A stretch of DNA of 64,000 nucleotides, from assembly GCF_900167465.1 (NCBI RefSeq), contig NZ_FUWR01000002.1, positions 124,001 to 188,000 on the forward strand, read 5' to 3'. Position 1 is the first letter of the stretch. Each line of letters starts with the position of its first letter. The DNA is from Trichlorobacter thiogenes (lineage in GTDB: Bacteria > Desulfobacterota > Desulfuromonadia > Geobacterales > Pseudopelobacteraceae). Below, in pieces: positions 4,270-10,433 of this stretch. Both the position numbers and the translations under genes were made by a program. Below the pieces are notes generated by a model. It saw only the letters and a list, made by a program, of their open reading frames with translations, was not told the DNA's origin and did not search any database.

Positions 4270-5673
4270 TCAGTCAGCGTACTCTTCCTTCCTCAGTCCA
4301 TATCGCTTGATCTTGCGGTACAGCGTTGCCACGTTCATACCGGCTTCTTTGGCGGCGCTATCCACGGCACCGCCATGTTTGCGTAGCAGGTCACGTAGCA
4401 GATCCCGTTCAAACCGTTCCAGCGCCTCGGTAAAGGGCATGTCATCGGACAGGACCGGCCCGGCCTGGACCGTTGCCGGTATGATCCGGCCTTCCGGCAG
4501 ATCAATTACCTGTCCCAGGGTATCCAGGCTGATATAGTCGCTGGCTTCCATGGCCATGCAGGCCTCAATCACGTTACGCAACTGGCGGATGTTGCCGGGC
4601 CATTCAAAGGTGCAGAGGATCTGCATCGCATCCCGCTCAAACGCCTTGACTGCGGTGCCGAATTTCTGGTTTTGCAGGTGGATGAAGTGGGCAGCCAGCA
4701 GCGGAATATCCTCAATCCTTTCCCGTAGCGGCGGCAGGTGCAGGTTGACGACATTCAGGCGGTAGTAGAGATCTTCCCGGAATGTGCCGGTTCTGACCCC
4801 TTCCTTCAGGTCGGCGTTGGTGGCGGAGATGATCCGCACATCCACCCTGGTGGAGTTGGTGTCACCCACCCGACGAAACTCTTTTTCCTGCAGAAAACGA
4901 AGCAGGGTTTTCTGGACGTTCATCGGCAGGTTGCCCACCTCGTCCAGAAACAGAGTGCCGCCGTCGGCCGCCTCCAACAGGCCCTGCCGGTTTTCCATGG
5001 CACCGGTAAAGGCCCCTTTGCGATAGCCGAACAGTTCGCTTTCCAGGATGCTCTCCGGCAGACCGCCGCAGTTAACTGCCATAAATTTACTGTCTTTGCG
5101 GTTGGAGTGGGTATGCACTGCCTGGGCGATCAGCTCTTTGCCGGTGCCTGATTCACCGGTAATCAGGATTGAGGTGTCCCGTCCTGCCACCTTGGCAACC
5201 TTGTCCAGCACATTCCGTAAGGCCCCTGATGAGCCGATGATGTTGTCAAACTGCAGCTTCTCTTCAATCTCCCGCCGCAGTTCACGATTTTCTTCAGTCA
5301 GCTGGGCCTGCTGCAGGGCGTTTTTGACCCGGAAGACCAGTTCATCAGGCTCAAACGGCTTGGTCAGCATGTCATAGGCACCTTTGCGCAGGGCCTGAAT
5401 CGACATCTCCACCGTGGCATAGGCGGTGATGATGATCACCGGAATATCGCGGCACTTTTCCTTAACCCGCTGTAGGACCTCAAGTCCGGTCATACCGGGC
5501 ATCTTGATATCGGTAATCACCAGATCCCAGGCGCCGGGCGAAAATTCCTCCACCGCCTTGACCGGGTTGGTGTAGGCGCGTACCAGATAGCCGCTGTCAA
5601 GTAGCACCTGCTCCATCATCCGGCACAGTCCCTCTTCATTATCGATCAGCAGAATACGCTGTTTGTCAGTCAT
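4270..5673 (-). CDS. NtrC-family sigma-54-dependent response regulator
   Basis: This 467-residue response regulator has three parts. The receiver domain (1-120) has the phospho-acceptor Asp55 in DIKMPG and the conserved Lys105 in TKPFEP. The AAA+ sigma-54 interaction domain (about 143-370) has Walker A GESGTGKE (173-180) and an intact GAFTGA loop (220-225). A Fis-type helix-turn-helix closes the protein (NVATLYRKIKRYGL). With GAFTGA present it is competent to activate sigma-54 RNA polymerase. Its start overlaps the stop of the histidine kinase gene by four bases (ATGA), so the two form a cognate pair. The likely target is the divergent transporter gene at 8757, which carries a -24/-12 promoter and paired palindromes; that link is inference. 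Confidence 0.95.
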   Translation of the reverse strand: MTDKQRILLIDNEEGLCRMMEQVLLDSGYLVRAYTNPVKAVEEFSPGAWDLVITDIKMPGMTGLEVLQRVKEKCRDIPVIIITAYATVEMSIQALRKGAYDMLTKPFEPDELVFRVKNALQQAQLTEENRELRREIEEKLQFDNIIGSSGALRNVLDKVAKVAGRDTSILITGESGTGKELIAQAVHTHSNRKDSKFMAVNCGGLPESILESELFGYRKGAFTGAMENRQGLLEAADGGTLFLDEVGNLPMNVQKTLLRFLQEKEFRRVGDTNSTRVDVRIISATNADLKEGVRTGTFREDLYYRLNVVNLHLPPLRERIEDIPLLAAHFIHLQNQKFGTAVKAFERDAMQILCTFEWPGNIRQLRNVIEACMAMEASDYISLDTLGQVIDLPEGRIIPATVQAGPVLSDDMPFTEALERFERDLLRDLLRKHGGAVDSAAKEAGMNVATLYRKIKRYGLRKEEYAD

Positions 5674-7244: not shown

Positions 7245-7934
7245 TTAGTGTGGTTGTAACGGTTCAAGCAGGCGGATGATCTGTGCCTGTTGTGATTCGG
7301 AAAGCGTCGTGAAGTTGACGCCGATACCGGGGATATGATGTCTACCCGTTCCCCAAAGGCGTAACCAGCAGATGGTGGCGGTAATCGGGGTTGTGTCGTT
7401 AAGGCCGATAAACTGAATGCTCACCTGTTGTTCAAGCTGCAGCTCTGTGTTGCTTGTAAACAGAAAACAGCCTTTGGGTGAGATGTTCAGGGTGACGGTC
7501 CGTTCCGGGCTATCCTGTTCAGGAACTGTTGTTAACAGCGCCTGCAGATGCAATGGATAGCGATCCTTGGGGCGGACCAGGCGCGGAGTAAACCCCTTGC
7601 ACAGTTCCGCAAACTCATCAATAGATTTGGCAATCCCTTGGGTGGCGTCGGCAGTCAGCAGTTTGATGCTATCGGTCGCTGGAGCAATATTCAGGTAAGC
7701 ACTGGGGAGTGCCTTCAGAATGTCCTCTGTGGCTGTTTTGTCTGCGGGGGAGGCTTTGATCAACACCGGCATATCCAGCAGAACGCCACTCAGCGGGGTG
7801 CCTGATGCCAGGATTGCCACCTCTTTCAGCTCTGCAATCGCCAGACATGAGATACCACGTGCGTCGAGCGCTTCCCGGTACACCTGGGTACGGCTTGCGC
7901 TGCGGGATACCAGCAGAACAAGTGGGCTGCTCAT
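7245..7934 (-). CDS. PilZ-domain protein
   Basis: The 229-residue protein has an N-terminal part (about 1-115) resembling a degenerate receiver-like or regulatory fold, then a PilZ-type beta barrel (about 120-225) with conserved pieces such as NISPKGCFLF and a C-terminal GIGVNF. PilZ domains usually bind c-di-GMP through RxxxR and [DN]xSxxG. Here NISPKG matches the second motif, and RPKDRYPLHL may supply the first less perfectly, so ligand binding is likely but not certain. The start chosen is the ATG at 7934, which overlaps the upstream stop as ATGA. A longer in-frame extension would run deep into the upstream gene and encodes no conserved sequence. A c-di-GMP reader next to a GGDEF sensor is a sensible pairing. 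Confidence 0.82.
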   Translation of the reverse strand: MSSPLVLLVSRSASRTQVYREALDARGISCLAIAELKEVAILASGTPLSGVLLDMPVLIKASPADKTATEDILKALPSAYLNIAPATDSIKLLTADATQGIAKSIDEFAELCKGFTPRLVRPKDRYPLHLQALLTTVPEQDSPERTVTLNISPKGCFLFTSNTELQLEQQVSIQFIGLNDTTPITATICWLRLWGTGRHHIPGIGVNFTTLSESQQAQIIRLLEPLQPH

Positions 7935-8425
7935 GGGTGGAATCCTTCCTGTGGTGGCAGAGCGGCCGTTGCCGCCTGAACTATATCCTGATGGTGCAGC
8001 CATGCCAGGGCTGCTTCCCGGCGCCCCCAGGGGGTCTCACACTCAAAACAGCTGTCCGGTACCAGCTCCCTGCACATGCGGGGGCGGGAGTCAAAGGCGA
8101 GGCTGCAGCCGGTTGGTGTCAGGTAGATGCAGTCATCAGCGCGGGATTGATCGTAATCATCTGTTTTCTGTTCACGAACGGTCGCTGGCCTGGGGTACTG
8201 GATGATCCGGCCTGGATCAGGCGCGGTAACGCCCGGGGTGTAGGGCACACCATAATGTGTCTCTAAAACCCATTCGCGCCGTATAAGCAGTTCGGCCAGG
8301 GCTGCTGCGGGATCCGATTGTGCCAGGAAGCGATCCGGGGCCTCAATACCTGGTCTGGTGCGGCAGCACTGGCCACCACAGCGGGCACAGATGCTGCGGT
8401 GCTCATTGTTTTGAAGTACGTTCAT
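7931..8425 (-). CDS. YkgJ-family cysteine-cluster protein
   Basis: This protein of about 164 residues begins with a Cys cluster (CARCGGQCCR), with further Cys at CIYLTPTGC, RPRMC and CFEC. That is the pattern of the YkgJ/UPF0153 family, predicted to bind zinc or iron (possibly an Fe-S centre) with unknown function. I chose the ATG at 8425, which has AGGA about 11 bases upstream; an ATG at 8437 has no properly spaced ribosome-binding site but cannot be excluded. The stop overlaps the PilZ start by ATGA, so the two are translationally coupled. A second YkgJ-type gene lies at 11971-12672 in a different context. Confidence 0.78.
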   Translation of the reverse strand: MNVLQNNEHRSICARCGGQCCRTRPGIEAPDRFLAQSDPAAALAELLIRREWVLETHYGVPYTPGVTAPDPGRIIQYPRPATVREQKTDDYDQSRADDCIYLTPTGCSLAFDSRPRMCRELVPDSCFECETPWGRREAALAWLHHQDIVQAATAALPPQEGFHP

Positions 8426-8514
8426 CCGGTGTCGCATCCTGTCAGTGTATACATGACGTTTGATATTTTTGTTTGTTGCATAAATGCGATATCAATGTAA
8501 AGCAAAAACAGGCT

Positions 8515-8530
8515 TTTGCAAAATGGCAAA
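8515..8530. promoter_or_regulatory. palindrome, candidate activator site 1
   Basis: TTTGC-N6-GCAAA lies about 165 bases upstream of the -24 element of the transporter promoter. The same arms and spacing recur at 8577-8592. NtrC-type activators bind such dyads as upstream enhancers. Binding by the neighbouring regulator is inferred. Confidence 0.55.
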
Positions 8531-8576
8531 TGTAATGTCTCCAGGTGGTTATCTGTCTATCTTGTTTGAAACGCTG

Positions 8577-8592
8577 TTTGCATTGCTGCAAA
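8577..8592. promoter_or_regulatory. palindrome, candidate activator site 2
   Basis: This second TTTGC-N6-GCAAA dyad lies 62 bases centre-to-centre from the first (about six helical turns) and about 95 bases upstream of the sigma-54 promoter. Paired, helically phased dyads are the usual layout of an NtrC-family enhancer. Confidence 0.55.
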
Positions 8593-8686
8593 GCCTATTT
8601 TTGTCATGGAGACGCTATGTTTGGATGTTTTGTTTTAAGTTGCTGAAAATAAACGTAAAAAATCATTTTTATGAGATGTGTCGGTT

Positions 8687-8701
8687 TGGCACGTCAGTTG
8701 C
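8687..8701 (+). promoter_or_regulatory. sigma-54 (-24/-12) promoter of the transporter gene
   Basis: TGGCAC-N5-TTGC (TGGCACGTCAGTTGC) matches the sigma-54 consensus with both invariant GG and GC doublets and exact spacing. It lies 55 bases upstream of the ATG at 8757, and the sequence before it is AT-rich. The 319-base gap 8438-8756 also holds the two dyads described above and no convincing gene. Confidence 0.85.
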
Positions 8702-8756
8702 GTTACCCAAGCAACGAGTTTTCCTGCAACTATATTCATCCACGAGGAGGGTGTTC

Positions 8757-10154
8757 ATGTCTGATCAGAATCCACACAAGAGCAAGGGCTGGCAGGTGGT
8801 TATTGCAGGTACCGGTATTAACCTGGCCCTGGGCGTGCTGTACGCCTGGAGTATCTTTAAGGAAGCCATTGTCAGCTCTATCAAAGCTGGTGGTCCCGGT
8901 GCCTTTCAATGGGAAATGACCTCGGTTGGTACCCCCTATGCGGTTTGTTGTCTCACATTCTCCTTTGCCATGATTATCGCTGGTAAGGCCCAGGATAAGA
9001 TCGGTCCGGCCAAGACCGCCCTGATTGGTGGTCTACTGGTGGGGGCCGGATTTGTGTTGCTTGGTTTTACCACCAGCTTTGCTGGTTGGGTGCTGGGTTT
9101 CGGCGTTCTGGCTGGTGCCGGTTTCGGATTTGGCTATTCTGCAGCAACGCCTCCGGCGGTTAAGTGGTTTTCATCAGCCAAGACAGGTCTGGTGGCTGGT
9201 ATCGTGGTGGCCGGTTTTGGTCTGGCCCCGGTCTATATTGCGCCGCTGGCCAAGACCCTGCTGCATGCCTATGGCATCCAGAACTCCATGCTGATTTTGG
9301 GCATCGGCTTCCTGGTGGTTGTCTGCGGTCTTTCCTTCCTGCTGGTAAACCCGCCCAAAGGCTATGTACCCCGTGAAGTGCTGCGCGGCTACTATCCTGC
9401 GCTGGATGCCGAGAAGAAGAAAAAGGAAGAGGCCAACGCCACCGTCAGCGAGGTGCTGCGTTCACCTAAATTCTATGTGCTCTGGATCTGTTTCTTTATC
9501 GGTGCCGGTGCTGGTCTGATGGTGATCGGCAGTGTGGCTGGTATGGCCAAGAAAAGTATGGGCGAGATGGCCTTTGTGGCAGTTGCAGTGGCTGCCCTGG
9601 GTAACGCCGCTGGTCGGATCGTTGCCGGGGTGCTGTCAGACCGGATCGGCCGTCGTGCCACCCTGTTTATCATGCTGGCTTTCCAGGCATGTCTGATGTT
9701 TGCTGCCATTCCTATTACCGCAAAACCCAACCCTGTTACGCTGGTGTTGCTTGCCACCTTTATGGCCTTTAACTATGGTTCAAACCTGGCCCTGTTCCCT
9801 TCATTTGCCAAGGATTACTGGGGGCTTAAAAACTACGGCCTCAACTACGGCGCCCTGTTTACTGCCTGGGGTCTTGGCGGGTTTGTGCTGGTGCAGGCTG
9901 CTGACAAGATCAAGGCGATGCCGAACGGCAATACGAATGCCTTTATCGCTGCCGGTGTATTGCTGCTCTGCGGTGCTGCTCTGAGTGTCTTCCTGGCTGA
10001 CAAGAAGAAAGTTGCTGCTGGAGAAGCAGAACCTTCCCGCTGGCAAGAGTTCTGGGCAGAGTTTTCACTGGGCTTCAAGGTGTTCCTCGGTTTTGAGGCA
10101 CCTCAGGTTCGCGCTCCCCGTAACTGGGATGCCATTGAAAAGGGTCGCGCCTAA
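8757..10154 (+). CDS. OFA-family (oxalate/formate antiporter-like) MFS transporter
   Basis: The 465-residue, 12-span major facilitator protein sits in the inner membrane. It resembles OxlT-type OFA members in its opening GWQVVIAGTGINLALGVLYAW, the loop AGKAQDKIGP between spans 2 and 3, and the repeated DRIGRR loop in the second half. OFA members exchange or import small carboxylates; the substrate here is not evident. The start is the ATG preceded by GAGGAGG. An upstream in-frame extension of 91 codons runs through the sigma-54 promoter and is not plausible. It is transcribed alone, divergently from the kinase-regulator block, and ends at a strong hairpin terminator. Confidence 0.9.
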   Translation: MSDQNPHKSKGWQVVIAGTGINLALGVLYAWSIFKEAIVSSIKAGGPGAFQWEMTSVGTPYAVCCLTFSFAMIIAGKAQDKIGPAKTALIGGLLVGAGFVLLGFTTSFAGWVLGFGVLAGAGFGFGYSAATPPAVKWFSSAKTGLVAGIVVAGFGLAPVYIAPLAKTLLHAYGIQNSMLILGIGFLVVVCGLSFLLVNPPKGYVPREVLRGYYPALDAEKKKKEEANATVSEVLRSPKFYVLWICFFIGAGAGLMVIGSVAGMAKKSMGEMAFVAVAVAALGNAAGRIVAGVLSDRIGRRATLFIMLAFQACLMFAAIPITAKPNPVTLVLLATFMAFNYGSNLALFPSFAKDYWGLKNYGLNYGALFTAWGLGGFVLVQAADKIKAMPNGNTNAFIAAGVLLLCGAALSVFLADKKKVAAGEAEPSRWQEFWAEFSLGFKVFLGFEAPQVRAPRNWDAIEKGRA

Positions 10155-10172: not shown

Positions 10173-10209
10173 ACAAAAGAAGCCCCGCTCTGTTCGGGGC
10201 TTCTTTTGT
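10173..10209 (+). terminator. rho-independent terminator after the MFS gene
   Basis: A 15-bp perfect stem (ACAAAAGAAGCCCCG with its complement) around a 7-base loop ends in TTTTGTTT, 18 bases after the stop codon. The flanking A-run makes it potentially bidirectional. Confidence 0.9.
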
Positions 10210-10433
10210 TTGACTGCCACTTTTTCAGGTGTAGAGTTAATTTTGAAAACGGCAGTTACTCACGCGGGGCCGCGAGCTCGCGGATAAAATCAAGTAGGTG
10301 CCTAAAATAAGGAACAACCCTACAGGTGAAACAATAACATGGCGTAGCCAAATGACTTTACTCTTCGCGTCTCCGTGCCTCCGCGTGCAACTGCTTTTTA
10401 TGGGTTAAAGTCTCTACACACAAGGAGAATGCT
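10210..10433. other. intergenic region with GC palindrome and degenerate repeat
   Basis: No gene is seen. The region contains a 14-base perfect palindrome CCGCGAGCTCGCGG (10270-10283), preceded by a GC-rich run. At about 10363-10388 there is a degenerate tandem-like stretch (TTCGCG.CTCCGTG.CTCCGCGTG), of a kind often dispersed in intergenic DNA of environmental bacteria. An AAGGAG ribosome-binding site ends the region. No clear promoter was identified. Confidence 0.4.

Follow-up and report, generated by a model that had tools for sequence, protein, structure and literature searches.

Dyads conserved with an NtrC-type regulator suggest a sigma-54-dependent circuit that probably turns on small-acid uptake in the Geobacter order

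In sediments, in bioremediation and on electrodes, Geobacter relatives feed on small acids, chiefly acetate. In Trichlorobacter thiogenes, a monocarboxylate transporter gene is preceded by palindromic dyads and a sigma-54-type element, an arrangement that raises the question of which regulator uses these dyads, which other genes it serves and what signal it answers. We analyzed the surrounding stretch of 64,000 nucleotides (contig NZ_FUWR01000002.1, positions 124,001–188,000, forward strand), named the window hereafter, and compared it with related genomes. The features around the promoter, in window coordinates, are as follows.

4270..5673, minus strand: NtrC-type response regulator, receiver - sigma-54 AAA+ (GAFTGA) - Fis-type HTH, 467 aa
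5670..7202, minus strand: sensor histidine kinase, Cache-HAMP-HisKA-HATPase, 510 aa
7245..8003, minus strand: PilZ-domain protein, 252 aa (PF07238)
7931..8437, minus strand: cysteine-containing protein, 168 aa, with no Pfam or NCBIfam match
8475..8490, no strand: D0, tentative weak third dyad GTTGCATAAATGCGAT, 40 bases upstream of D1
8515..8530, no strand: D1, dyad TTTGCAAAATGGCAAA
8577..8592, no strand: D2, dyad TTTGCATTGCTGCAAA, with an exact TTTGCA-N4-TGCAAA core
8687..8701, plus strand: -24/-12 (sigma-54-type) element TGGCAC-N5-TTGC, 110 bases past the start of D2
8757..10154, plus strand: MFS monocarboxylate transporter of the SfMCT type, 465 aa (NCBIfam NF049980)

The transporter passes the NCBIfam profile of the L-lactate MFS transporter SfMCT, NF049980, with 402.5 bits (cut-off 320), and the label of oxalate/formate antiporter is rejected (TIGR04259, 152.4 bits, cut-off 335). 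The regulator combines a receiver with a sigma-54 AAA+ domain, whose GAFTGA starts at residue 220, and an HTH, and adjoins a HisKA/HATPase kinase, which is the composition of an NtrC-type two-component system; it is single-copy in the genomes listed. It is not NtrC (NR(I)) itself, scoring 423.7 bits against a cut-off of 558.6 (TIGR01818). The initial annotation had placed the transporter divergent from the kinase/regulator pair: the two sides do lie on opposite strands, but the genes of the 168-aa protein and the PilZ protein stand in between. Directly 3' of the transporter, at 10180-10211, a likely terminator was recognized by eye, made up of a AAGCCCCG-N7-CGGGGCTT hairpin and a T-rich stretch.

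D1 and D2 lie 62 bases apart, start to start, in agreement with the initial annotation, and are the sole matches to TTTGC-N6-GCAAA in the window. The pair is found in none of 100 dinucleotide shuffles of the whole window and, when the 319-base intergenic region is shuffled 20,000 times in the same way, at least one dyad appears in 0.485% of the shuffles and two in none; together, these controls rule out a pair formed by chance. D0 is weaker, with 3 of its 12 core bases mismatched. The TGGCAC-N5-TTGC element taken alone is unremarkable: it has at least one match in 29 of 100 window shuffles, which is chance level and makes the motif by itself uninformative as a promoter test. For the kinase-regulator side, a search of both strands with the exact motif revealed no leftward sigma-54 promoter.

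Conservation was assessed by aligning and re-measuring ten orthologous promoters from the window's genus, the window included, where D1 or D2 was counted as kept with at most two mismatches to TTTGCA-N4-TGCAAA. D2 is kept in all ten and D1 in nine, being eroded in L040, while D0 is kept with two to three mismatches in 7/10. The -24/-12 element, already assigned to this position by the initial annotation, is conserved in 10/10. The transporter promoter thus carries, throughout the genus, repeated dyads upstream of a conserved -24/-12 element, as an NtrC-type circuit would have at its target.

In the window's genome as a whole, TTTGC-N6-GCAAA alone is weakly specific, with five sites against three for the reversed motif. 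Of the other two sites, judged by reading the translations, one falls within a nuo-like frame and one on the downstream side of a pheT-like frame. The conserved core is in fact longer: at 116 TTTGC-N6-GCAAA sites before SP genes (described below), a set that includes loci fetched because of their dyads, the half-sites continue inwards with A in 99% and T in 96%, which defines the core as TTTGCA-N4-TGCAAA. The sites reported initially are real, and it is their motif that had been drawn too short. This longer core has two exact matches in the window's genome versus none for the reversed motif, and 16 versus 6 when one mismatch is allowed; 12 of these 16 lie away from targets, to be compared with the six of the reversed control. 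Only two promoters, that of the transporter and a second target, hold two sites of at most one mismatch close together. The second target is the SP gene on contig C8; its promoter region (about 1068-1121) holds one exact dyad and one with a single mismatch, at a distance of 38 bases. MP, its partner elsewhere, is located near the end of contig C10, so the SP-MP operon appears to be split by the assembly. The two proteins are encoded at the following positions.

L042:6346-6537 and orthologues; L122:678-875: SP, which opens the operon, 63–65 aa, of the PFYGKNDD-CDVGCGYI type
L042:6938-7984 and orthologues; G000:C10:22558-23592 in the window's genome: MP, 348 aa

SP is a cysteine-rich protein of 63 aa without a Pfam or NCBIfam match, and MP is a membrane protein of 348 aa without a match above cut-off in either collection; the predicted structure of MP (mean pLDDT 41) is of too low confidence for use. 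In other genera of the family, the operon consists of SP, small membrane frames, MP and, last, the transporter. The initial annotation took dyads to be expected upstream of orthologous transporters as well. Outside the genus these transporters usually have no dyads of their own, and it is the first gene of the operon that has them: typically two dyads about 33 bases apart before SP, with a third 123-139 bases further down. Neither this wider regulon nor D0, the longer core and the two intervening genes had been foreseen, and the overall picture of one circuit stands. Two peculiarities of these operons were also observed. In 27 of 41 SP-operon promoters (e.g., L042 and L062), the -12 element is followed by GTATAC, which might serve as a second operator or be a feature of the start site; it is absent at 8687-8720 of the window, in the transporter promoter. 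In L116 (G053:C1:2480124-2480264), MP is directly followed by what is left of a transporter gene, a short piece with two stops, and the upstream dyads are intact.

An unbiased count was obtained by scanning the genome collection with the MP alignment alone, which gave 79 loci among the matches listed. Seventy-three were countable, with SP present and at least 400 bases upstream; L149 and L169 (contig ends), L196, L201 and L211 were left out for having no SP, and L198 for its short upstream region (169 bases). The core occurs in the 400 bases before the operon in exact form in 64/73 loci, with at most one mismatch in 70/73 and with at most two in 71/73, and the reversed motif gives no match at any of these three levels in the same 73 loci. 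The transporter follows MP in 29 of the 79 loci, and 37 of the 79 contain the regulator. A row made up of regulator, dyads, SP and MP is seen in Geomonas, Citrifermentans bremense, Geotalea and Geomobilimonas, among others.

The spacings of the dyads are compatible with phasing on the helix. In the genus, D1 and D2 are 62–64 bases apart in six loci and 41 in three, a difference of about two helical turns, and the distance from D2 to the promoter is 108–113 bases in seven loci and 99–101 in three, a difference of about one turn; the operon spacings fall at 123–126 versus 135–139 bases. These steps support the phased arrangement proposed at the outset, and the formal test of periodicity is just modest: for 21 distinct spacings, a period of 10.5 gives R 0.41 with p ~0.03, and periods of 10 and 11 give nothing.

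Do these elements work with sigma-54? It is conceivable that the -24/-12 match is fortuitous and that the transporter is transcribed with another sigma factor, in line with the chance-level occurrence of the motif in the window. A further point in this direction is GSU2490, the annotated oxalate-formate antiporter of G. sulfurreducens, a possible orthologue of the window transporter, whose promoter is given as RpoD-type in the excerpted RpoN study (PMC2725144). Against this, the element is conserved in all ten genus orthologues; in 31 of 38 operon promoters the last exact dyad is followed by TTGGCA(C/T) at 88–101 bases (at 213–262 bases in the other seven); and the window regulator has GAFTGA. 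We regard transcription with another sigma factor as very unlikely, and sigma-54 dependence in the cell would be the natural reading of these promoters. The excerpts of the same study list dcuB among the RpoN targets of G. sulfurreducens, and no mention of the window's circuit was found in them (PMC2725144).

The distribution of the dyads follows that of the regulator. Across 76 genomes of the family, there are 160 exact cores versus 10 for the reversed control. With regulator presence called at E values up to 1e-150, the 54 regulator-bearing genomes contain 138 exact cores, with at least one in 49/54, and the 22 genomes without it contain 22, with at least one in 11/22. Close pairs are found in 38/76 genomes with 5–35 bases between dyads and in three of the 76, the window's included, with 36–66 bases between them; neither class has a counterpart among the reversed controls. 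The regulator is likewise accompanied by MP: among 53 family genomes with completeness of 90% or more and contamination of 5% or less, 44 have both, none the regulator only, two MP only and seven neither, and in 112 genomes of the order at least 90% complete the corresponding numbers are 83, 1, 6 and 22, counts that are not independent because relatives share ancestry. Thus 83 of the 84 regulator-bearing genomes have MP, and the lone exception, G034, has its MP cut by a contig end; MP itself is present in 89/112, with 72–95% identity in most relatives. Among the genomes with MP only, G064 carries part of a regulator on the contig of its transporter (L039), and G040 and G048 are fragmented and keep exact cores. 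The informative ones are G076, G077 and G079 (by contig position, loci L196, L201 and L211), which keep MP and gave hits neither for the regulator nor for SP; within 1.5 kb, they have no dyad even when two mismatches are allowed. Their congener G078 (L186) has the regulator, SP and dyads. Two further genomes, G057 and G075, have the regulator without an exact core and carry one- or two-mismatch dyads before SP.

By this comparison, regulator and dyads are linked both statistically and by position, recurring together near -24/-12 promoters of relatives and both missing in G076, G077 and G079, which makes the dyad a good candidate for the regulator's site, as initially predicted. The C-terminal HTH region of the regulator is near-constant in 12 aligned orthologues, as expected with a constant binding site. 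The dyads might instead be operators for some other DNA-binding protein whose gene lies elsewhere, either a repressor or a global regulator, with the kinase/regulator pair using other sites. Such a reading could account for G022 and G031, in which dyads are present with no regulator hit (G031 is 88% complete; G022 is 94% complete with 9% contamination), and for the separation of the regulator from the SP-MP operon, seen in the window's genus as well as in many genomes of the family. It agrees poorly with the adjacency of dyads, operon and regulator in several genera, with the concentration of exact cores in regulator-bearing genomes, with the joint absence of regulator and dyads in three genomes that keep MP, next to a congener that has both, and with the clustering of dyads some 90–110 bases before a -24/-12 element, as one would expect for an enhancer-binding protein. 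We consider it improbable. The window's regulator would then bind the dyads itself, and would do so as an activator rather than a repressor.

Acetate-uptake genes extend the set of targets in part of the family. Seven genes of the AceTr (GPR1/FUN34/YaaH) family are each preceded by three dyads of at most two mismatches and by a TGGTAT-N5-TTGC element 67–73 bases before the start. They were found among 18 acetate-uptake genes with at least 1.3 kb upstream, of which 700 bases were scanned; the other 11 have no dyads, and of these five come from genomes that lack the regulator and six from genomes where it was hit in full or in part. Universal control of acetate-uptake genes is thereby ruled out, and acetate uptake appears to belong to the regulon in only part of the family. 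A nineteenth gene, in G031, has the element, with 125 bases available upstream. The acetate-uptake promoters (L106, L108, L117 and others) share the TGGTAT variant at -24 and have dyads 21-22 and ~102 bases apart.

As to the signal, the periplasmic domain of the kinase is closest in sequence to 2qhk/4exo, 5g4y/5g4z and 4k08, and its AlphaFold model (mean pLDDT 70) has 5g4y, 4k08 and 4exo as best Foldseek hits. The chemoreceptor PscD (5g4y/5g4z) binds glycolate, acetate, propionate and pyruvate, the carboxylate being held by Tyr90, His103, Tyr143 and Lys156, according to the sections of the source used here (PMC5062169). These four hydrogen-bonding residues correspond to Y109, H122, Y155 and K168 of the window kinase and are invariant in 15/15 aligned kinase orthologues. 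Out of seven PscD pocket residues, five are identical in the window kinase, W157 included; the two differences are PscD Trp92, replaced by Tyr111, and Phe126, replaced by Ile142, positions occupied across the orthologues by Tyr/Phe and Ile/Val, respectively. In Adeh_3718 (4k08), as described in part of the report, acetate occupies the equivalent residues, and its authors allow for a crystallization artefact (PMC3831638). A kinase orthologue of 651 aa (L062:6768-8723) has an extra Cache-like repeat that is absent from the 510-aa kinase of the window.

Judged by these Cache pocket residues, small carboxylates, the class proposed initially, seem to be the right class of ligand, and C2–C3 monocarboxylates are the best common denominator of sensor and targets. 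For the transporter itself the preference may be narrower. The available portion of the SfMCT study reports uptake of L-lactate with competition by propionate and butyrate, significant competition requiring an aliphatic chain of at least three carbons (PMC6573034), so acetate may not be a substrate of the window transporter. It is possible, though less likely, that the circuit operates as outlined and that the kinase senses something other than a C2–C3 monocarboxylate: another small acid, or the state of the cell envelope or its redox state. The Trp92 and Phe126 positions do differ in kinases of the window type, the partner proteins SP and MP are without known function, and PscD and McpP differ in affinity with identical pockets, as stated in the excerpted source (PMC5062169). 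Weighing on the other side are the invariance of all four hydrogen-bonding residues in 15/15 orthologues, the fact that the nearest structures are carboxylate-binding Cache domains, and targets that include lactate-type and acetate transporters. A C2–C3 monocarboxylate would thus be the better candidate for the ligand.

Taken together, the comparison of sequences makes it likely that, in the Geobacter order, the kinase and regulator form a two-component uptake circuit dependent on sigma-54, in which the phosphorylated regulator acts at the dyads in response to a C2–C3 monocarboxylate. The periplasmic Cache domain would sense acetate, propionate, lactate or pyruvate, and the kinase would then phosphorylate the NtrC-type regulator. 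Once phosphorylated, the regulator would bind the TTTGCA-N4-TGCAAA dyads, spaced by near-whole helical turns, assemble as an AAA+ ATPase about 100 bases upstream of the promoter, loop to the sigma-54 RNA polymerase at -24/-12 and open the promoter, so that more of the lactate-type transporter is expressed. The regulator would also serve a second promoter in the window's genome, that of SP and MP, and, in some relatives, an acetate-uptake gene. The arrangement thus probably turns on the uptake of acetate, lactate and similar small organic acids. We can only tentatively suggest a broader role, which we hold to be rather unlikely as a whole: the pair could act as a master switch governing small-acid uptake throughout Geobacterales, and SP and MP could form a complex of a new kind that takes up or senses monocarboxylates; the lactate-type and acetate transporters would have joined it later as additional members of the regulon. 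Titles and abstract openings of open-licence papers describe neither this regulator nor its motif or regulon. The comparison provides the order with a regulator, a 12-base motif, a short list of targets and a candidate ligand class, and ties an uncharacterized membrane protein found in most of its genomes, MP, to small-acid uptake.

The kind of circuit is already known, and its mechanism is that of an ordinary sigma-54 circuit: NtrC-type activators proceed through sensing, phosphotransfer, binding to phased sites, looping and ATP-driven opening of the sigma-54 holoenzyme. In layout, the window circuit resembles DctB/DctD of rhizobia, where a sensor kinase and an NtrC-type regulator with tandem upstream sites act on a sigma-54 promoter of a divergent carboxylate transporter; DctB/DctD handles C4-dicarboxylates, with another transporter family than the window's. 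AtoS/AtoC and ZraS/ZraR have the same domain architecture as the window pair. The best NCBIfam hits of the pair are AtoC (446 bits) and AtoS (264.3 bits), scores far below the equivalog cut-offs of 714 and 646, respectively, so that regulator and kinase are not members of these families; AtoC, by its family name, acts in acetoacetate metabolism. The sensor domain finds its best sequence and fold matches in PscD and Adeh_3718, which share the four hydrogen-bonding residues but are chemoreceptors, unlike the window kinase, with ~22-24% identity in the fold alignment and, for PscD, two different hydrophobic pocket positions. The transporter is likened by profile score to SfMCT of Syntrophobacter fumaroxidans, whose NCBIfam equivalog it passes. 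The nearest functional parallel found, likened by function, is DVU3023 of Desulfovibrio vulgaris, a two-component sigma-54 regulator of lactate metabolism and transport: as far as the excerpted report goes, it shares with the window regulator the two-component design, GAFTGA, sigma-54 promoters and a lactate transport target, and differs in having the D. vulgaris lactate-metabolism operon and other genes as targets (PMC4641369).
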